Shown here: one piece after another, positions 30,688-40,095 of the stretch
Numbering within the stretch: position 1 is the first letter of the stretch
Layout: every line of letters begins with the position of its first letter
Source of the DNA: Thermotomaculum hydrothermale
GTDB lineage: Bacteria; Acidobacteriota; Holophagae; Thermotomaculales; Thermotomaculaceae
Direction: 5' to 3'
NCBI RefSeq assembly: GCF_016592575.1
Contig: NZ_AP017470.1
Coordinates: forward strand, 1,994,501-2,058,500
DNA: 64,000 nucleotides
Notes under the pieces: model-generated
Databases searched by the model: none
What the model was told of the DNA's origin: nothing
Seen by the model: the letters and a program-made list of their open reading frames with translations, nothing else
Position numbers and translations under genes: made by a program

Positions 30688-31600
30688 AACTCACTCTCCT
30701 GTCAAGAACTCCTATTAGGAAATCACCTATAAGATTTGAATAAATATAAACAATAGCAATAAAAATCGCCAGTGATTGTACAAGTGGGTAATCCCTGATA
30801 TTTATCGCCTTTATTAAAAGAAGCCCTATCCCATCCCAGGAAAAAATTGTTTCTGTAATTATCGCCCCTGTTAAGAGAAAACCTAATTGAAGAAATAACA
30901 CAGTAACAACAGGGATTAATGCATTTTTAACAATGTGCTTGAAAAAAATAAGATATTCTCTTATTCCCCTTGTTTTAAGTGCCACAGTGAACCTTTTGTC
31001 TATTTGGTTTAAAAGTTCATTTCTAAATATATGTATTAAATAGCTTCCCATAGGAAAGGAAAGGGTTAACGCAGGGAGAAACACATGGTAAAAACCTCCC
31101 GTTCCTGAAACTGGAAAAATTTTTAATTTCACTGAAAACGCTAACAGCAGAAGTATCCCTAACCAGAAAGAGGGGATAGACATCCCTATTGTTGCAAAAA
31201 ACACAATAACTTTGTCAATAATCCCCTTATGAAATCTAACCGATAGAAAAGACAGGGAAAAAGATAAAAGTATAGCTATCAAAAATGCTACAATCCCCAA
31301 AAAAAGTGTATTTTTAAACTTTGATTTAATAACTGAAAAACATGGTTTATTGTAGTAAATAGAATTACCTCCACCGTTAACAAAAACATTTTTAAGGAAA
31401 AAAGCTGCCTGAGTAATAATTGGTTTATCAAGGGCATACTCTTTCACAATCCTTGTTTTCATTACGCTTGAAGCGTTTTCCCCAACTAAAATGTCTACAG
31501 GATTTCCTGGGGCAAGGTGGATTAACATAAAAACAATCAAAACCACAGCCAAAACTGTTGGAATTGAAAAAATTATTCTTTTTATTGCATATTCAATCAT
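30668..31600 (-). CDS. ABC transporter permease (DppB/OppB type)
   Basis: About 310 residues with six helices. The N-terminal RIIFSIPTVLAVVLIVFMLI and HLAPGNPVD are classic DppB features. The coupling loop is ALKTRGIREYLIFFKHIVKN and the late segment ITETIFSWDGIG is typical. The ATG at 31600 has AGG eight bases upstream and overlaps the end of the sigma-54 activator gene. A TTG at 31606 in frame is less likely. Substrate unknown. Confidence 0.92.
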   Translation of the reverse strand: MIEYAIKRIIFSIPTVLAVVLIVFMLIHLAPGNPVDILVGENASSVMKTRIVKEYALDKPIITQAAFFLKNVFVNGGGNSIYYNKPCFSVIKSKFKNTLFLGIVAFLIAILLSFSLSFLSVRFHKGIIDKVIVFFATIGMSIPSFWLGILLLLAFSVKLKIFPVSGTGGFYHVFLPALTLSFPMGSYLIHIFRNELLNQIDKRFTVALKTRGIREYLIFFKHIVKNALIPVVTVLFLQLGFLLTGAIITETIFSWDGIGLLLIKAINIRDYPLVQSLAIFIAIVYIYSNLIGDFLIGVLDRRVSFEKRDL

Positions 31601-34600
31601 TTTCAATACCTAATTTTTTTAAAAGCTGGTGAAGCCTTTGTCTTGTAATACCCAATTCTCTTGCTGCTTTTGTAAGGTTTCCATTACATCTTTCTATGGT
31701 GCTTTTTATAAATTTCCTTCTAAATTCCTCCTCAGCCTCCTTCAATTTACCCTTAAAAGAGATTTCGGAAGGCCTTACATACTCAGGCAAATGCTCAACA
31801 TCAATAACAGGGTTATCACCTGATAAAATTAAAGCCCCAGTAATAATATTCTGTAATTCCCTGACATTTCCTTTGTATTGATAATTCTTTAAAACCTGCA
31901 ACACATTGTAAGAAAATGATTTATCTCTTCCCGCTTCATTTGTTCTGAGGAAGTATTCAGCAAGAAGAGGAATATCCTCTCGTCTATCATTTAAAGTGGG
32001 GGTTTGAATATTGTAAGCTGCAATTCTGAAGTATAAATCTTCCCTGAATTCTCCCTGCTTGACAAGCTTTTTCAAATCTCTGTTCGTGGCAAAAACAAAC
32101 CTTGCATTAACCTTTTTTACCCTTGTGCTTCCTATAGGAGTAAACTCTCTTTCCTGCAAAACCCTCAAAAGCTTTGCCTGCAAAAGGGGAGACATTTCCC
32201 CTATCTCATCAAGGAATACAGTGCCATCTCCAGCAACCTCTAACAAACCTTTTTTCGAACTAACAGCACCTGAGAAAGCCCCCTTTTCGTACCCAAACAA
32301 CTCGCTTTCAAGTAAATTTGCAGGAATTGCAGCACAATTTATAGGGATAAATCTATTTCTCCTTCTCTTTGAACAATAATGTAAAGCCCTTGCAACAAGC
32401 TCCTTCCCAGTCCCACTTTCTCCTACTATTAAGACTGGTACATTAAAATCTGCAACTTTTAAAATACTCTCTTTTAGCTTCTTTATAACATCACTTTTAC
32501 CTATAATTTCATTTAGAAAATCACACCTATAAGAATAGGATGATGTGTCCTGTCCTGTATATATAAACTTTACATGCGTTGCAATTATCTCTAAAACAAA
32601 CTTTAACAAAGGAAAAAACTCGTCATCAACTTCAGTGTCTGAAATAAGGCATACCTGTTTTCCCCTGTCTGCCAAAACAAATAACCACTCTTTTTCCAGA
32701 TCTTCCTGGTAAGGAATAATTTCAATTCTGTTTAAACCCAGCCACTTAGCCAATTCTTCCAGTACTTTTCTCAGGGTAAAAACTTCACCTTTTACAGAAT
32801 GTTCAAAAACCTGATTTAGAATTGCAAAAAGGTTTGAATCAAACCTTGCTTTCTTTTTTCTTACAATTGCTTCTCTAAAAGTTGAAGCAAACTCATCATT
32901 AAAATGCCTTACAATTGAATAATCTCTTTCAACAGTTTCCTCGTCAAGCACAAAAATCAATCTGGAAAACCTTTTTATTAACTCGGATTTAATCAGGTAA
33001 ACAGTGTGCCTTAAAGGACAATTTTCAACCTCTCTGTAAAAATCATAAACTTCAGCAAGGTTTTTTTTGAAAAGAAGTATTTCAAACCACCTGTAAAGAT
33101 ATGGCTGGAGTTTGTCCTCTCCCTTTAATTCCCAGATTTTAAAGTATTTCCTTGCTTTTTCATAATCACCTTTGTAATAACAAAGTTCTATTTTTTTATA
33201 AGTGATTTCTCTTTTGTAAAGTTCAATATTACTCTCTTTTTCAAACAAAGAGAGGTAGTACTCACTCTTTTCAAAATCTCTCAAATCCTGATAAACAGTT
33301 GTAAGCACAAAATGAATTTGAGGTAATTCTGATTTTAATCCGTGTATCTCAGCAATTTCCAGAGCTTTTAACAAATATTTTTCCGCCTCTTTTCCCCTTG
33401 AAGCAAAGGCATTTATTTTAGCAAGAGCCTTTAATAGGTAAATTTGCTCTCTATAATGGTCAGTATTTTTTTCTCTCAAATAAAGTTTTAAAAAATACCT
33501 GTAACTTCTGTCAAGCTCGCACATTGAAACATCTATGTGCGCAAGGTTGTATTCAACATCTTCAAATATTCCTTCATTATCAATATCCACAGCAATTTTT
33601 AAAGCTTTCAGGTAATAATCCCTTGCCCTAAAAAAATCCTCTGTATAGTACATTGCATTACCGTAATGTTTGTAAATTAATGCAAGTTCCAGAAAGTTAT
33701 TTTCACTTTGTGCAAACTCGATTGCTTTATCAAAGTGGGTTTTAAAGTCTTTTTGAGCTTCAAAATATGCTACTATAGCCTTGAATCTGTAATATGTTGC
33801 ATCCTTCTTTTTTATCTGCTGTAAAATCCTTTTTAAAGACTCAAAATCCCTTTTTCTGTAAGCAAATTCCAAAGCACAATAGCCGTCAACCTTAACTCCT
33901 TTTACATCTTTCCCCTTTAATGCCACAACCAGATTGTAAAATGAAGAGAAAAAATTATTTTGCTCACAAAAATCAATAAGAGCGTCAAATTTATTGAGAA
34001 AAAATAGAGACTCAACTATATATGGATATAAAATCTTTTCTCTTTCTTTATCCCAGAAGCTTAAAGCTTTTTTAAAATTATCGGCACAATACCAGAAAAA
34101 GCCCTTTACCGAATTGGAAAAGTTTTTTCTATTCTCAACATATTCAGCAAGGTCTATTTTTGATTTGTTTTTTTTCAAAAAATCTTTACTTTCAATCAAA
34201 GACTTTAAATTCCCTTTTTCTGCTTTCAAGATAATATTTTCAATTTCTTTATCAGTTACAGGCTTTCTCTCTAAAGGGAATTTACAAACATTTTTTTCAA
34301 AAAAACCTTTTTTTTGCAAAATCAGATCAGGCTTCAGTTTTCTTAAATTCTCCAGTTCTTTTTTGTCTAATCCCAGTGAATCAAGGACTTCTTCCCTCTT
34401 TGAAAAATAACCTTTTTCAAGCAAATAAAGAAATGGGATAAAAAGCTTTTCTGATTCTCTGTTTAGCCTGCTTAAAAATTGCTGAAAAGAGTACTCAGGA
34501 TAAATATAATTAATAATTCCTATTTCTCCAGAAAGGGGAGGGTTAAATATAGCTGCCTTCCCTTTTTTCAGAAGCTTATTATAGGCTTTAGCAAAAGGTT

Positions 34601-35450
34601 TTTTCTCAAAAACAATAACTTTAAAATTTTTTATTTCTTCTGAAATTTTCTCAAAAATCTCTAAAGAAAAACTGTCAATATTTTCTCCCAATTCAAAATA
34701 GGCAATATCTTCTCCAATGTTTTTGAGCAAAGGTTTTACCCTTTTCCACATTAAATCAACATCGGCAAGTTTTTCAGGAGAGTATTGAGGAAGGTTTAAA
34801 TAAAAAAACTTTTCCGCAAATCTATTATAGCTTCCAAATGGAACACTTTCCCTTATCTCTAACCCTGAATAATCTCCCCCTAAAAAATAAAGAAAGGGTG
34901 AAACAATATGGCTAAAAGGGAAAATCCAGAAAACAGTATTTTGAGTTGATTTAAAAACATTTTCAAAGAAAGAGGTTCCAATCCTGAAATGCGCAAACCT
35001 ATCAACTTTATCAACTTTAACAGGTTGAATCTCATCAATAACAAATAGCAAATTTACAAGCGAATTCCCCTGTTGAGCTATATTGTCAATACTGTTTGTA
35101 AATTTCTGTGAATAGTTTTTTAAATAAGGTTGAAGGGACTTTCCTTCAAAATTCTCATCCCCAAATATCAAAGAGTAAAAAAACTCTTTTATTTTAGACA
35201 AGTACTTTGACTCTTCAAAGTCTTTGTAATCTATTGTTTTTTCATTCACAAAGAGAAAGTTGTCTTCTGTTACAAAAAGATTTTCAGGAAGTAAAGAATC
35301 AGGCATTAACCCTATTTGCTTGTAATAAAAACCGGCATTTACAAGCTGCTTGGCAAAGAAAACCGCTGTTTCAAACTTAAGCCTTTTGCCTTTCTCTAAC
35401 CTTTTGCCCTCTAATAATCTGTTTGAATCAAAAAACAGATAGTCAATCAT
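31593..35450 (-). CDS. large sigma-54-dependent activator with kinase-like N-terminus and TPRs
   Basis: 1285 residues. The N-terminus (~1-120) has a segment SLLPENLFVTEDNFLFVNEK that recalls the HRDLKPEN loop of protein kinases but lacks the catalytic Asp, so it may be a dead kinase fold. A middle part of unclear fold is followed by helical TPR-like repeats (~470-840) and a GAF-like region (~870-970). The AAA+ domain has Walker A VGESGTGKELVARAL at ~1005, the sigma-54 loop GAFSGA in place of the usual GAFTGA, and Walker B FLDEIGEMS. A Fis-type HTH (NLTKAARELGITRQRLHQL) ends the protein. It likely senses an internal signal and activates sigma-54 promoters. It lies between glnN and dppBC. Confidence 0.88.
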   Translation of the reverse strand: MIDYLFFDSNRLLEGKRLEKGKRLKFETAVFFAKQLVNAGFYYKQIGLMPDSLLPENLFVTEDNFLFVNEKTIDYKDFEESKYLSKIKEFFYSLIFGDENFEGKSLQPYLKNYSQKFTNSIDNIAQQGNSLVNLLFVIDEIQPVKVDKVDRFAHFRIGTSFFENVFKSTQNTVFWIFPFSHIVSPFLYFLGGDYSGLEIRESVPFGSYNRFAEKFFYLNLPQYSPEKLADVDLMWKRVKPLLKNIGEDIAYFELGENIDSFSLEIFEKISEEIKNFKVIVFEKKPFAKAYNKLLKKGKAAIFNPPLSGEIGIINYIYPEYSFQQFLSRLNRESEKLFIPFLYLLEKGYFSKREEVLDSLGLDKKELENLRKLKPDLILQKKGFFEKNVCKFPLERKPVTDKEIENIILKAEKGNLKSLIESKDFLKKNKSKIDLAEYVENRKNFSNSVKGFFWYCADNFKKALSFWDKEREKILYPYIVESLFFLNKFDALIDFCEQNNFFSSFYNLVVALKGKDVKGVKVDGYCALEFAYRKRDFESLKRILQQIKKKDATYYRFKAIVAYFEAQKDFKTHFDKAIEFAQSENNFLELALIYKHYGNAMYYTEDFFRARDYYLKALKIAVDIDNEGIFEDVEYNLAHIDVSMCELDRSYRYFLKLYLREKNTDHYREQIYLLKALAKINAFASRGKEAEKYLLKALEIAEIHGLKSELPQIHFVLTTVYQDLRDFEKSEYYLSLFEKESNIELYKREITYKKIELCYYKGDYEKARKYFKIWELKGEDKLQPYLYRWFEILLFKKNLAEVYDFYREVENCPLRHTVYLIKSELIKRFSRLIFVLDEETVERDYSIVRHFNDEFASTFREAIVRKKKARFDSNLFAILNQVFEHSVKGEVFTLRKVLEELAKWLGLNRIEIIPYQEDLEKEWLFVLADRGKQVCLISDTEVDDEFFPLLKFVLEIIATHVKFIYTGQDTSSYSYRCDFLNEIIGKSDVIKKLKESILKVADFNVPVLIVGESGTGKELVARALHYCSKRRRNRFIPINCAAIPANLLESELFGYEKGAFSGAVSSKKGLLEVAGDGTVFLDEIGEMSPLLQAKLLRVLQEREFTPIGSTRVKKVNARFVFATNRDLKKLVKQGEFREDLYFRIAAYNIQTPTLNDRREDIPLLAEYFLRTNEAGRDKSFSYNVLQVLKNYQYKGNVRELQNIITGALILSGDNPVIDVEHLPEYVRPSEISFKGKLKEAEEEFRRKFIKSTIERCNGNLTKAARELGITRQRLHQLLKKLGIEND

Positions 35451-35451
35451 T

Positions 35452-37515
35452 TTACAGTATCAGCATAGAGTCATAGTCAGGGAGAGGCCATATAGACTTG
35501 TCTGTCTCAGTTTCTAAAAAATCAACAATTTCTCTTAATTCGTTCATTAGAGGTAAAATTGTGTTTGCTGCAAAAAATGCCTTTCTCTCCCCTTCCATTG
35601 GCTCAAAGTTTTGGGTTTCATTAATTAAAAGCCCTGTTTTTTCTTCCATTGTTTTTACTGCTTTAATGTACTCAGAGTAATTTAAGAAATCAAATTTAGA
35701 AAACATATCAATCTGCTTCAAAGCAGCAGTTCTCACATACTTTTTTATTAATTTTACAAGCATCCTTGACTCAATATCAATAATCTTTGAATACTGATCA
35801 TACTTAATATTTAACCTTGCGTTTAACTCCCTTTCCGACATTATCCCCAAGTCAATAAGGAATTTTCTTTCCTCAGCATCTGCAAAGGAGTTTTTCAAAG
35901 ATTCTGGAGTGTTTTTTAAATTAGCAAGCCCTCTTTTTTCAGCCTCAATCTGCCACTCTTTACTGTACCCATTGCCATTGAAGATTACTTTGCTGCACTT
36001 TTTTAAAACTTTAGACAATGCAATAAGTATAGCTTCTTCCCTGTTTTTGCCTTTTGCCTTCTCTTCTTTTATCAACTCACTTATCTCATTGAAGCTATCT
36101 GCCACTGACGCATTTAAAATTGTATTTGGCAAACCAAGAGGCTGGGAAGAGCCTACTGCCCTGAATTCAAACTTATTTCCTGTAAATGCAATAGGTGATG
36201 TCCTGTTTCTATCCGTATTATGCCTTGTTATTTGTGGAAGATATGATAAACCAATCTCCAGTGTCTTTGAATGTTTAGGCTCAACAAAGTTTCCTTCCTT
36301 TAAATTTTCGAGCACCTCCCCTAATGCAGAACCAACAAAAACAGAGATAATTGAAGGTGGCGCCTCATTTCCTCCCAATCTATGGTCATTCGCAGCTGAA
36401 GCAACAGAAGCCCTTATAAATTTCTGATGGTTGTATACCCCGTTTATCACCCCAACAAAGAATACAAGAAATCTTAAAAACTCCTCTTTGTTCTTGCCAG
36501 GGGAAAGGTAATTCACCCCTCTGTTATCGGCAATTGACCAGTTGTTGTGCTTTCCACTACCATTTAACCCCTTAAAAGGTTTTTCGTGAAGAAGCAGGGA
36601 AAATCCGTGCTCTTCCGCTTTCTTTTTTAGCATAATCATAACAAGGTGATTGTGGTCTGCCGCAATATTTAACTCCTCAAATATTGGAGCAAGCTCAAAC
36701 TGGCAGGGGGCCACCTCATTGTGCCTTGTTTTTGCAGGAACCCCTAATTTGTACAATGCAAGCTCTAAATCTTCCATAAAATACTTAACCCTATCTGGAA
36801 TGCTACCAAAGTAATGGTCTTCAAGCTTCTGGCCTTTTACAGAATTAGCACCTATTAAAGTCCTGCCGGTAATAATTAAATCTTCCCTCTTTCTGTAAAC
36901 CTCTTTATCAAGCAGATAATACTCCTGCTCAGGGCCTGTTGTTATAGAAATCTTTTCAGGTACAGGGAATTCAGATACCTCAAGTAGTTTTTTTGTTGAT
37001 TCTTCAAGAACTTTTATAGACTTTAAAAGAATTGATTTCTTGTCAAGGGAGTCTCCGTTATATGAAAGAAAAACAGAAGGGATACACAGTGTATTTGTTT
37101 TCTTCCCTTCAATAATAAAGCAAGGGCTTTGAGGGTCCCAGGCTGTATATCCCCTTGCTTCAAAGGTAGACCTTGTACCACCGCTTGGAAAAGAGGAAGC
37201 ATCAGGCTCTCCCTGAATTAACTCATCAGCCAAAAACCTTTCAATAGGCATTAAATTTTCGTCAAATGTTAAAAAAGCATCATGCTTTTCAGCAGTAAGC
37301 CCTGTTAGGGGGTGAAACCAGTGGGTATAATGGGTGCAATTGTTTTCAATTGCCCACTCTTTTAGTGCATGAGCAATACATTCAGCAACATCCTTTGTAA
37401 TAGGTTCCCCTTCTTTAATAGTCTTTTTAAAACGCTTGTAAACCTCATAGGAGAGCTTATTTTTCATCACCTTTTCATTAAAAGTAAGAATGCCGTAAAT
37501 TTCTGAAACCTTCAT
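35452..37515 (-). CDS. glnN: type III glutamine synthetase
   Basis: 687-residue GSIII, which makes glutamine from glutamate, ammonia and ATP. The N-terminal GSIII-specific part includes THYTHWFHPLTGLTAEKHDA and FPSGGTRSTFEARGYTAWD. The catalytic barrel has GPEQEYYLLD, NEVAPCQFELAPIFEE, GLNGSGKHNNWS and the RNRTSPIAFTGNKFEFRA loop. Length fits GSIII (~700), not GSI. The ATG overlaps the stop of a 38-residue lipoprotein gene (ATGA), and the sigma-54 activator gene starts 1 base after its stop, so nitrogen control of this operon is plausible. Confidence 0.96.
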   Translation of the reverse strand: MKVSEIYGILTFNEKVMKNKLSYEVYKRFKKTIKEGEPITKDVAECIAHALKEWAIENNCTHYTHWFHPLTGLTAEKHDAFLTFDENLMPIERFLADELIQGEPDASSFPSGGTRSTFEARGYTAWDPQSPCFIIEGKKTNTLCIPSVFLSYNGDSLDKKSILLKSIKVLEESTKKLLEVSEFPVPEKISITTGPEQEYYLLDKEVYRKREDLIITGRTLIGANSVKGQKLEDHYFGSIPDRVKYFMEDLELALYKLGVPAKTRHNEVAPCQFELAPIFEELNIAADHNHLVMIMLKKKAEEHGFSLLLHEKPFKGLNGSGKHNNWSIADNRGVNYLSPGKNKEEFLRFLVFFVGVINGVYNHQKFIRASVASAANDHRLGGNEAPPSIISVFVGSALGEVLENLKEGNFVEPKHSKTLEIGLSYLPQITRHNTDRNRTSPIAFTGNKFEFRAVGSSQPLGLPNTILNASVADSFNEISELIKEEKAKGKNREEAILIALSKVLKKCSKVIFNGNGYSKEWQIEAEKRGLANLKNTPESLKNSFADAEERKFLIDLGIMSERELNARLNIKYDQYSKIIDIESRMLVKLIKKYVRTAALKQIDMFSKFDFLNYSEYIKAVKTMEEKTGLLINETQNFEPMEGERKAFFAANTILPLMNELREIVDFLETETDKSIWPLPDYDSMLIL

Positions 37516-37628
37516 TTTAGAACCTCATTAACGGAAGTTTTTGAGGAAGGAATGGGGTCAAGCTTTTTTCCACAGGAAACCCCTGAAAATAAAAACAACA
37601 AAATTATTAAAATTGCAAAAAATTTCAT
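37512..37628 (-). CDS. 38-residue lipoprotein, LptM-like
   Basis: A very short gene with ATG at 37628 and TGA at 37512, preceded by a G-rich ribosome site (GGGGGGG). The product starts with MKFFAILIILLFLFSGVSC, a signal peptide with a lipobox ending at Cys-19. GKKLDPIPSS follows, then a short tail. The CGKKxDPxP pattern resembles small outer-membrane lipoproteins of the LptM (YifL) kind that aid LptD maturation. Its stop overlaps the glnN ATG by 4 bases, so it is clearly translated as part of the operon. The function is a guess. Confidence 0.72.
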   Translation of the reverse strand: MKFFAILIILLFLFSGVSCGKKLDPIPSSKTSVNEVLK

Positions 37629-37671
37629 TACCCCCCCTTTTTAATTTTTTAACTCTAATGATTGGATTATA

Positions 37672-38361
37672 TCAATTTTTCCTGACTTTTTTAACCTCTC
37701 CAGAGTAAAAAATAGCTTCTTTACCTTCATGCTCAATTACAATTGCAAAATCAGGTGTAAATCCTTTAAAAACTCCTTTTAATGTTTTCTCTCCAGAATT
37801 TAAACTTATTAAATCACCTTTTTTAAAGTATGAATTCTGTTCAACTGTTGAAAAGAGAATTTCATTATTAGGTTTGCTATCAAACACAGAAGAAAGTTTT
37901 TTAATAATAAGGCTTTCAAGTTTATCTTTAGAAATAGAAATCTTACCCTTTAACGATTCACTACCCTCAATTGGTGCATAGTTAAAATTAATACCAATTC
38001 CAATAACAACCTTTGCAATATTCCCTTTTACCCTTGATTCAATCAAAATTCCTGCTATCTTTTTCCCATTTAATAAAATATCGTTAGGCCATTTAATTTT
38101 TAATTCTCCTGATACATAGCGTGAAAACAAATCAAAAACTTCACAGACAACCTTTACAGAAAGGTATTTTAAAGATTCTATATCTGTAATTTTTCCTATT
38201 GAGAGGTGAATATTTCCAGAAACTGAAAGCCAGTTAGAGTTGTTTCTTCCATAGCCTGCTGTTTGAATGTCTGAAGTTACAACCACAAAAGGGTATTTTT
38301 CAAGAAACCTGAATGCCTCTTTATTTGTGGAATCAACTTTTTTTAGTTTTACTATCTTCAT
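37672..38361 (-). CDS. birA: biotin-[acetyl-CoA-carboxylase] ligase
   Basis: 229-residue biotin protein ligase without the DNA-binding domain (class I). Motifs: VVVTSDIQTAGYGRNNSNW (biotinyl-AMP loop, residues ~26-44), LKIKWPNDILLNGKKIAGIL at ~86-105 with the catalytic Lys region, and KVVIGIGINFN. A short C-terminal SH3-like domain follows. It attaches biotin to carboxyl carrier protein. It overlaps the endonuclease III fusion gene by 29 bases. Confidence 0.93.
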   Translation of the reverse strand: MKIVKLKKVDSTNKEAFRFLEKYPFVVVTSDIQTAGYGRNNSNWLSVSGNIHLSIGKITDIESLKYLSVKVVCEVFDLFSRYVSGELKIKWPNDILLNGKKIAGILIESRVKGNIAKVVIGIGINFNYAPIEGSESLKGKISISKDKLESLIIKKLSSVFDSKPNNEILFSTVEQNSYFKKGDLISLNSGEKTLKGVFKGFTPDFAIVIEHEGKEAIFYSGEVKKVRKN

Positions 38362-39367
38362 TTTTCAGATAAAACATGCAGAGTTTTGTTAAAGGGCACC
38401 TATCACATAAAGGCCTTATCGGTTTGCAAATATTCTGGCCGTGCTTTACAAGTAAACCGTTGTACTCTCTTATATACTTTTTAGGAAGAATATTTTTTAA
38501 AACCTTTTCACTTTCTTCCGGGGTTTTTGTTTTAATAAAGCCAAGCCTGTTTGAAATTCTATGCACATGAGTGTCAACACAGACTTCGTAATGACCGAAA
38601 CCGTTTGCAAGCACGAGGTTTGCCGTTTTTATCCCAACATTTGGCAGTTTTAACAAATCCTCCTTGTTGTCAGGCACCTTTCCGTCGTACTCTTTAACGA
38701 TTATTTCTGCCACCTTTTGTAAATTCTTACCCTTTGTCTTATAAAAACCAGCAGGATATATCAACTCCCCTATTTTTTCAGGGGATAACTTCATTAAATG
38801 ATAAGGTGTTGGAGCCTCTTTAAACAACCTTTCAGCAGACACTGCAGTTACCTCGTCCTTTGTCCTTAAAGAAATAATACAGGAAACGAGCAATTCCCAT
38901 GGAGTTTTAAACTTTTCAACAGGTGTTTCTTTCCCCCTGTACAAATCAAGTAAAATTTCAACAACTTTTTCAATATGCTTTTGAAACAAAATCTTTAAAT
39001 ATGGCTTTGCAACAAGTTTTTTTGAATAAAAAAGATGGCTTTCACATTTACAATCTCCGCATCCAAAACCTTTAATTGAAACTAAATCCTCTTTTAAAAT
39101 ATCTGCAAGTATATGTTCAAGAGAGTTATCACCAACAATGTATGGATTGATGAGAATAATCTCTGCCTTTTCAAGTAAAAAATCAATATGCCAGTGCTTT
39201 TTTTCTTTATTTTTTTTCAAATGCCTCTTTATTCTTGCAGCTAAACCATTTATTGCAGAACCGCAATAGTAGTAATACCCTTTTTTAAGGGGAAAAACCT
39301 TTGATTTAGTTTTAAGGTTAATATTTTCAGAAAGAAAAGCAATTATTAAATAAATTCCTTTATTCAT
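38333..39367 (-). CDS. DUF123 (GIY-YIG-like)-endonuclease III fusion
   Basis: 344 residues. Residues ~1-115 are a DUF123 domain (GYYYYCGSAINGLAARIKRH, KKHWHIDFLL). Residues ~130-340 are a full endonuclease III: HhH LPNVGIKTANLVLANGFG with the catalytic Lys, VDTHVHRISN with the catalytic Asp, and the 4Fe-4S loop CKPIRPLCDRCPLTKLC (C-x6-C-x2-C-x5-C). It is a bifunctional DNA glycosylase/AP lyase for oxidised pyrimidines. The role of DUF123 is unknown. The ATG at 39367 shares a base with the previous stop (TGATG). The fusion is known in some thermophiles and archaea. Confidence 0.92.
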   Translation of the reverse strand: MNKGIYLIIAFLSENINLKTKSKVFPLKKGYYYYCGSAINGLAARIKRHLKKNKEKKHWHIDFLLEKAEIILINPYIVGDNSLEHILADILKEDLVSIKGFGCGDCKCESHLFYSKKLVAKPYLKILFQKHIEKVVEILLDLYRGKETPVEKFKTPWELLVSCIISLRTKDEVTAVSAERLFKEAPTPYHLMKLSPEKIGELIYPAGFYKTKGKNLQKVAEIIVKEYDGKVPDNKEDLLKLPNVGIKTANLVLANGFGHYEVCVDTHVHRISNRLGFIKTKTPEESEKVLKNILPKKYIREYNGLLVKHGQNICKPIRPLCDRCPLTKLCMFYLKNEDSKTKKS

Positions 39368-40095
39368 CAATCAATAGAACCAGCAAACCCAAAGAAAACC
39401 TTAATGCCATCTTCTTTTATAACTGCAAAAAAACCACCTGCATTCTCAACAACTGTTCTAAGTTCAAAAAGTTTTTCAACAATTTTTATCTTGCCTTTAT
39501 ATTTTTCTCCAACAAGTATAATTTCAATCTGTCTTTCAGACAAATTCAAATCAGGAAAATTAACTTCAATCAAAACAGGCATCACCCCTTTACAGAAAAA
39601 ATCCTTTTCAAACTCTATTTTATAAGAGTATTTTATCCCCTCTTTATCCAGATAATCAAAAAACTCTTTTAACCTGTCCTCAAAAAATCCCTTTTTTGCA
39701 AAAATTTTACCTGATAAAGCCTCTGTAAGGTTATAATGCTTGCTGAGATTTTCAAGGGATATTTCAACATAGTCTACAACCTTGTTTTTTAATTCTTTAA
39801 CCTTTTTATTGAGAAAATTAACAAGAAACCTGTTGTTTTCAAAATCCCTTATCTTTTTCTTTAAAATAGATTTAAAAAAATTAACATTGCAATAGGGAAT
39901 ATCATCTAAAGATACTTCCTCTTTTGTTTCACACTCTTTTTTCAATTCCTTTGCTTCTTCAAAATATTTCATAAGGTAATAGGAAAGAAGAATAATTACC
40001 GCAATGGGGAAAACATACATTGTGTTGAAAAGTATATCAATTATTACAGTAAAAAAAGCTACTGAAACTGAAATAAATGCCTTTTTAAAATCCAT
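39367..40095 (-). CDS. membrane protein of unknown function beside MglA-type GTPase
   Basis: 242 residues. Two hydrophobic segments (~8-22, ~27-43) lead into a long charged, probably coiled-coil part (~50-130) and an alpha/beta C-terminus. The end, VVENAGGFFAVIKEDGIKVFFGF, resembles the final strand pair of histidine-kinase ATPase domains, but no N, G1 or G2 box is visible, so a degenerate ATPase-like fold is only a possibility. It is coupled to the GTPase gene (TGATG) and to the endonuclease III gene (TGATG). Confidence 0.7.
   Translation of the reverse strand: MDFKKAFISVSVAFFTVIIDILFNTMYVFPIAVIILLSYYLMKYFEEAKELKKECETKEEVSLDDIPYCNVNFFKSILKKKIRDFENNRFLVNFLNKKVKELKNKVVDYVEISLENLSKHYNLTEALSGKIFAKKGFFEDRLKEFFDYLDKEGIKYSYKIEFEKDFFCKGVMPVLIEVNFPDLNLSERQIEIILVGEKYKGKIKIVEKLFELRTVVENAGGFFAVIKEDGIKVFFGFAGSID

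Follow-up and report, generated by a model that had tools for sequence, protein, structure and literature searches.

A conserved LptM-like short lipoprotein gene overlapping glnN in Thermotomaculum hydrothermale

LptM and the lipoprotein locus upstream of glnN

The closest described counterpart of the gene analyzed here is lptM (formerly yifL) of E. coli, whose product is a small lipoprotein represented by the models PF13627 and NF047847. In the excerpted text of PMC12644819, E. coli LptM contacts LptD through its first 10 mature residues; a form lacking residues 44–67 still co-purifies, and a form lacking residues 22–30 is strongly impaired. A salt bridge between K23 of LptM and E275 of LptD has been predicted, and lptM-like genes have been described as "virtually absent" outside Proteobacteria (Yang 2023, PMC10567701, as excerpted).

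The window analyzed in this study is a 64,000-nucleotide stretch of the genome of the acidobacterium T. hydrothermale. It contains a minus-strand open reading frame (ORF) of 117 nt, from an ATG at 37628 to a TGA at 37514–37512, and its product reads MKFFAILIILLFLFSGVSCGKKLDPIPSSKTSVNEVLK. The original prediction had placed this lipoprotein correctly without giving its strand. Like E. coli LptM, the protein is a small lipoprotein with C-G-x-K after the lipobox followed by prolines; the organism also encodes LptD and LpxC, and related genes stand at dapF elsewhere in the phylum. In contrast, the mature chain has 20 residues where that of E. coli LptM has 48, DP-x-P takes the place of GPLYFP, the gene adjoins glnN and not dapF, and it belongs to an acidobacterium and not to Proteobacteria. 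The features of the locus are listed in Table 1.

Table 1 Features of the lipoprotein–glnN locus, in window coordinates.
Feature	Position	Strand	Basis or remark
38-residue lipoprotein gene	37512..37628	-	mature chain C19–K38, 20 residues, starting CGKKLDPIP
Signal peptide through the lipobox cysteine, ending SGVSC	37572..37628	-	sequence; predicted cleavage before C19
G-rich Shine-Dalgarno site AAGGGGGGG of the lipoprotein ORF	37631..37639	-	sequence and duplex energies
Possible promoter TTAAAA-17-TATAAT, TG ahead of second hexamer	37666..37694	-	just past the birA-like stop
glnN, type III glutamine synthetase, 687 aa	35452..37515	-	GSIII_N, E 3.2e-69
ATGA overlap of lipoprotein stop and glnN start	37512..37515	-	glnN ATG at 37515 overlaps the TGA
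glnN Shine-Dalgarno site ATGAGGTT within the lipoprotein ORF	37521..37528	-	duplex energy

The lipobox cysteine and a hydrophobic stretch were found in all seven family sequences compared. The lipobox is atypical at position -3, which is usually L, V or I and is G in the window protein and S, S, C, A, A and A in the relatives. The ribosome site, predicted to be strong and G-rich, reads AAGGGGGGGTA-ATG and gave a computed anti-Shine-Dalgarno duplex of -10.2 kcal/mol, compared with -6.3 for the site of glnN itself; the corresponding values across all seven family genomes range from -8.6 to -10.8. It includes a run of seven G (37631–37637, minus strand), which is also present in G001 and G004 but not in G003; the length of such runs can change by slippage. 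The gene had further been thought too short for the usual gene callers, which does not hold, since 117 nt exceeds the 90-nt minimum ORF length of Prodigal, a common gene caller.

Upstream on the same strand lies a biotin/lipoate protein ligase-like gene (birA-like), with its stop 43 nt before the lipoprotein ORF. The possible promoter between the two matches at 10 of 12 positions; shuffled sequences yielded 1.7 such sites on average, so matches of this kind are expected by chance. Its candidate -10 element TGATATAAT is retained in the four same-genus loci examined. A 345-aa ORF at 38333–39370 on the minus strand, judged by eye, presumably combines a first part like a DUF123/GIY-YIG-type domain with a second part like endonuclease III.

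Conservation of the gene and its junction with glnN

The family of the window (f1) was represented by nine genomes, of which seven are informative in having the glnN start on a contig (G000, G001, G003, G004, G005, G006 and G008); glnN is cut by a contig end in G002, and neither glnN nor the lipoprotein was seen in G007. The check put forward with the original prediction was a search for short ORFs upstream of glnN in relatives, in which a frame or lipobox not conserved in close relatives would speak against the gene. The short ORF was present in all seven informative genomes, with both frame and lipobox conserved. In each of them it lies directly 5' of glnN with an identical AAATGA junction, and the lipobox cysteine, G at +2 and K at +4 are kept at identities down to 39%. 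Besides the start residue (the genes of genus g2 begin with GTG, typed as M in the alignment), L10, C19, G20, K22, D24, P25, P27, E35 and K38 are invariant among the seven proteins, as is the motif CGxKxDPxP.

Six pairs gave pN/pS ratios of 0.25–0.47 for the lipoprotein gene. Over the nine codons that open the mature chain (codons 2–10 in g2), five pairs gave 0–0.19 and G001 and G003 showed no change, all from small counts. The C-terminal part is less constrained in g2 (0.35–0.93) than in genus g1 (0.07–0.30). The lipoprotein ORF is therefore a real gene, conserved and under purifying selection.

In g2 the lipoprotein gene does not follow the ligase gene, and the large gene-like ORFs found upstream by eye are oppositely oriented; given this difference upstream, glnN is the constant partner of the lipoprotein gene. 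The computed duplex at the glnN ribosome site is -5.6 to -7.2 kcal/mol in six genomes and just -3.3 in G006, and the lipoprotein site was the stronger of the two in all seven. A contig-level scan for further loci returned six, three of them family records and the others assigned to Pelagibacteraceae, Hungatella and a Clostridia bacterium, and a plasmid search for the locus gave no match.

The gene directly 3' of glnN, at 31593–35450 on the minus strand, encodes a sigma-54 activator of 1285 aa that has a Fis-type HTH and a match to TPR; this gene may be co-transcribed with glnN. Antisense to the junction (37507–37558, plus strand), the glutamine riboswitch model of Rfam matched at 20.6 bits against a gathering threshold of 35; none of six relatives showed this match, and it was taken as chance.

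Relationship to LptM and to dapF-linked lipoproteins

The window protein matched neither of the two LptM models, Pfam PF13627 (cut-off 27.3 bits) and the NCBIfam equivalog NF047847 (27.7 bits), and the same result was obtained for three relatives from the same genus; the control, E. coli LptM, scored 33.9 and 44.5 bits, respectively. With NF047847, scores in the family were 21.3 bits for G006 (E 2e-4), 16.5 for G008 and 15.1 for G005, all below the cut-off. PF13627 returned nothing at E 10 across the whole genome of T. hydrothermale; in a control, the same short model gave matches in 12 of 14 genomes, some of them Gram-positive, and exceeded the cut-off in one. At the motif level, Cys-Gly and Lys at mature position 4 are found in all seven family sequences, as in LptM, and none has the glycine that follows this lysine in CGxKG, its place being taken by L, M or A. 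CGKK starts were also found in other lipoproteins of the window genome. Because the window protein fails the curated membership tests, we call it LptM-like and not LptM.

A profile of nine sequences (seven from f1 and two from genus g12) matched 109 of 247 phylum genomes at E ≤0.1, many of the matches that were read being other lipoproteins. The best short matches beyond the class of the window protein were CG[RK]KGDPxP lipoproteins in other Acidobacteriota families. Short genes of families f5 and f31 were read in eleven genomes (G135, G144, G090, G168, G062, G160, G114, G077, G152, G102 with GNP, and G184), where dapF follows on the same strand in every case; in nine of these no more than 19 nt separate the stop from the dapF motif, and in G090 and G062 the distance is about 0.25 kb. 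A further group in f47, with CG[LR]KG[DP]PLPP starts and strongly acidic tails (L219, L251–L260), was read in 11 of the 12 f47 genomes matched by the dapF-type profile, G198 with its long frame being left out, and is upstream of dapF in 11 of 11, 14 nt from the motif. All 22 short lipoproteins read in these three families are thus directly 5' of dapF, the position that lptM likewise occupies in E. coli K-12, and for 20 of them the stop comes within 19 nt of the conserved N-terminal motif of dapF (with predicted dapF start codons). The coupling to glnN had been called unexpected. The linkage itself stands, whereas the overlap is less surprising than supposed because 20 of 22 dapF-linked relatives also overlap or nearly abut their downstream gene; overlap with a downstream gene is common among relatives, and glnN as the partner is new.

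Four of the 16 dapF-linked proteins scanned passed NF047847. These belong to the eleven from f5 and f31 (G160 34.5, G077 30.9, G184 29.7 and G062 28.3 bits), and the other seven fell below 27.7 (G090 27.6, G135 25.8, G144 19.8, G102 19.8, G114 18.3, G152 12.7 and G168 6.5); the true start in G152 lies further upstream than in the form used in the models. None of the five f47 proteins scanned passed, although NF047847 was the top match in four (15.0 to 22.6 bits) and gave no match in one. PF13627 was passed by one of the eleven f5/f31 proteins (G160, 27.4 against 27.3), and G168 had no match to it. For its best members, the tie of the dapF-linked group to LptM is good by curated cut-offs and gene order.

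Long lipoproteins with a CG-x-K/R start, about 340–580 residues after the cysteine, also lie directly 5' of dapF in seven genomes (G061, G066, G070, G091, G124, G126 and G136; L244–L250). They share the N-terminal motif with the window protein and differ in a large C-terminal region that has no counterpart in the window ORF. Among the 85 dapF-bearing genomes of 90 searched, at least 13 have a CG-x-K-type lipoprotein at dapF, six short and seven long; 13 is a lower bound, as dapF loci were covered in 80 of the 85 (all but G074, G092, G132, G137 and G142), for the most part by a motif scan of about 1 kb upstream. The same kind of scan at the dapF loci of eight f1 genomes found no such lipoprotein (about 0.3 kb upstream only in G001). 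Three other short lipoproteins of the window class (G031, G045 and G012) stand beside neither dapF nor glnN by eye. In many genomes of the sister family f2 (L017, L069, L074 and similar loci) we observed lipoproteins of about 150 residues starting CGRKGDPxPRPR, none of them at the f2 dapF loci scanned.

The short CGxKG[DNP]P lipoproteins of f5, f31 and f47 resemble the window protein in the motif core, in length and in the overlap or near-abutment described above, and differ from it in the KG glycine, in longer tails (acidic in f47) and in having dapF downstream. When a reverse profile was built from seven dapF-linked sequences without any member of the window family, the window ORF was its best match in the window genome (E 7.6e-5; next 0.0139). 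Across 396 phylum genomes the profile matched 114, including the same gene in G001, G004, G005 and G006, and gave no match in G007, G031 and G045. Matches of the dapF-type profile in the window family have E values of 1e-6 to 1e-4, and many longer CG-x-K lipoproteins score alike. In a shuffle test with a dapF-type model of nine sequences, each of the seven family proteins outscored all 1000 of 1000 shuffles with its mature segment; G031, G045 and G012 likewise outscored all or nearly all of theirs, and as this includes the CGKKSPPKP of G012 the test is not very specific. E. coli LptM itself scores weakly on the Acidobacteriota models, its score being reached by 18 of 1000 shuffles with the dapF-type model and 51 of 1000 with the family model. 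By sequence comparison, the tie of the window family to the dapF-linked group is good, and the window protein is weakly tied to E. coli LptM when the two are compared directly. The original label "LptM-like" thus draws support from two-way profile links to dapF-linked lipoproteins, a quarter of which pass NF047847 among those scanned, and none from the LptM models applied to the protein itself.

Possible roles of the lipoprotein

The genome of the window encodes LptD (26.1 bits against a cut-off of 22.4; 670 aa) and LpxC (E 3.5e-108), and should therefore make and export an LPS-type lipid. An LptD match was obtained in all nine family genomes, over the cut-off in seven, and by alignment the equivalents of C173, C725 and E275 of E. 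coli LptD are present in nine of nine, those of C31 or C724 not. The LptD of a Holophagaceae genome, G009, keeps the same three equivalents. Since G009 also has a CGRKGDP-type lipoprotein frame, it gives no LptM-free control, and the LptD residues are compatible with an LptM role without counting as evidence for it.

Given these data, we consider that the ORF, on balance, probably encodes a minimal LptM-like outer-membrane lipoprotein with an LptM-like role. A chance ORF would be short, as this one is, and the window copy has no match to a family model; conservation of frame, cysteine, motif and junction in seven of seven genomes, at identities as low as 39% and with pN/pS below 0.5, nevertheless refutes this explanation and leaves it a negligible probability. 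It is possible, though we doubt it, that the protein is a small outer-membrane lipopeptide of a generic kind, be it structural, vesicle-related or entericidin-like, with just the CGKK start in common with LptM and no contact with LptD. The lack of any LptM model match would fit such a protein, and small lipoproteins such as Atu8019 (PMC7296081) and HP0135 (PMC11768039) have effects on the envelope without being presented as partners of LptD in the excerpts of those reports. The window protein, however, matches no NCBIfam entericidin model either, CGxKxDPxP is kept family-wide, and the profile searches work in both directions.

It is unlikely that the ORF serves mainly as a leader whose translation controls glnN by coupling, with the peptide itself secondary. 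Such a leader would account for the strong Shine-Dalgarno site ahead of a weaker glnN site and the ATGA overlap in all seven genomes, for the location of the glnN site in the last codons of the ORF, and for the position of the lipoprotein gene at the head of the unit in g2, where the large gene-like ORFs upstream (by eye) run the opposite way. The mature N-terminus, which lies apart from the glnN ribosome site, is nevertheless under strong amino-acid constraint, and G031 and G045 carry the lipoprotein gene on contigs other than those of glnN.

For an LptM-like lipoprotein, the following course can be proposed. The protein would be exported, lipidated on Cys19 and sorted to the outer membrane through the Gly at +2. 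Its 20-residue mature chain would correspond to the LptD-binding segment of LptM and little more. This chain would dock on LptD between lateral gate and beta-taco, where E. coli LptM binds with its first ten mature residues, and would assist LptD in folding, in forming the conserved disulfide and in opening for LPS. In the window family the gene would be the first of a two-gene unit with glnN, away from dapF, and ribosomes loading at its strong Shine-Dalgarno site could pass to glnN through the ATGA overlap by translational coupling.

The gene of the window family resembles a relative of LptM that has been shortened and moved. The statement of Yang 2023 is qualified by the genes found at dapF in Acidobacteriota, of which four exceed the NCBI cut-off; the glnN-linked gene would be a diverged variant. 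No lipoprotein–glnN operon of this kind was found by title in the open-licence literature, where PF13627 returned LptM papers only. A wider scenario, which we hold to be quite improbable as a whole, is that LptM is not a proteobacterial invention, that Acidobacteriota hold it at dapF, and that the window family cut it to little more than the segment binding the LptD gate and coupled it to glutamine synthetase, so that assembly of the LPS translocon tracks nitrogen assimilation. If an LptM-like role is true, LptM-type helpers of the LPS translocon extend beyond Proteobacteria, and a natural 20-residue version would show which part of LptM suffices. For finding more, the combination of a short CGxKxDPxP lipoprotein with an overlap onto dapF or glnN would offer a simple marker.
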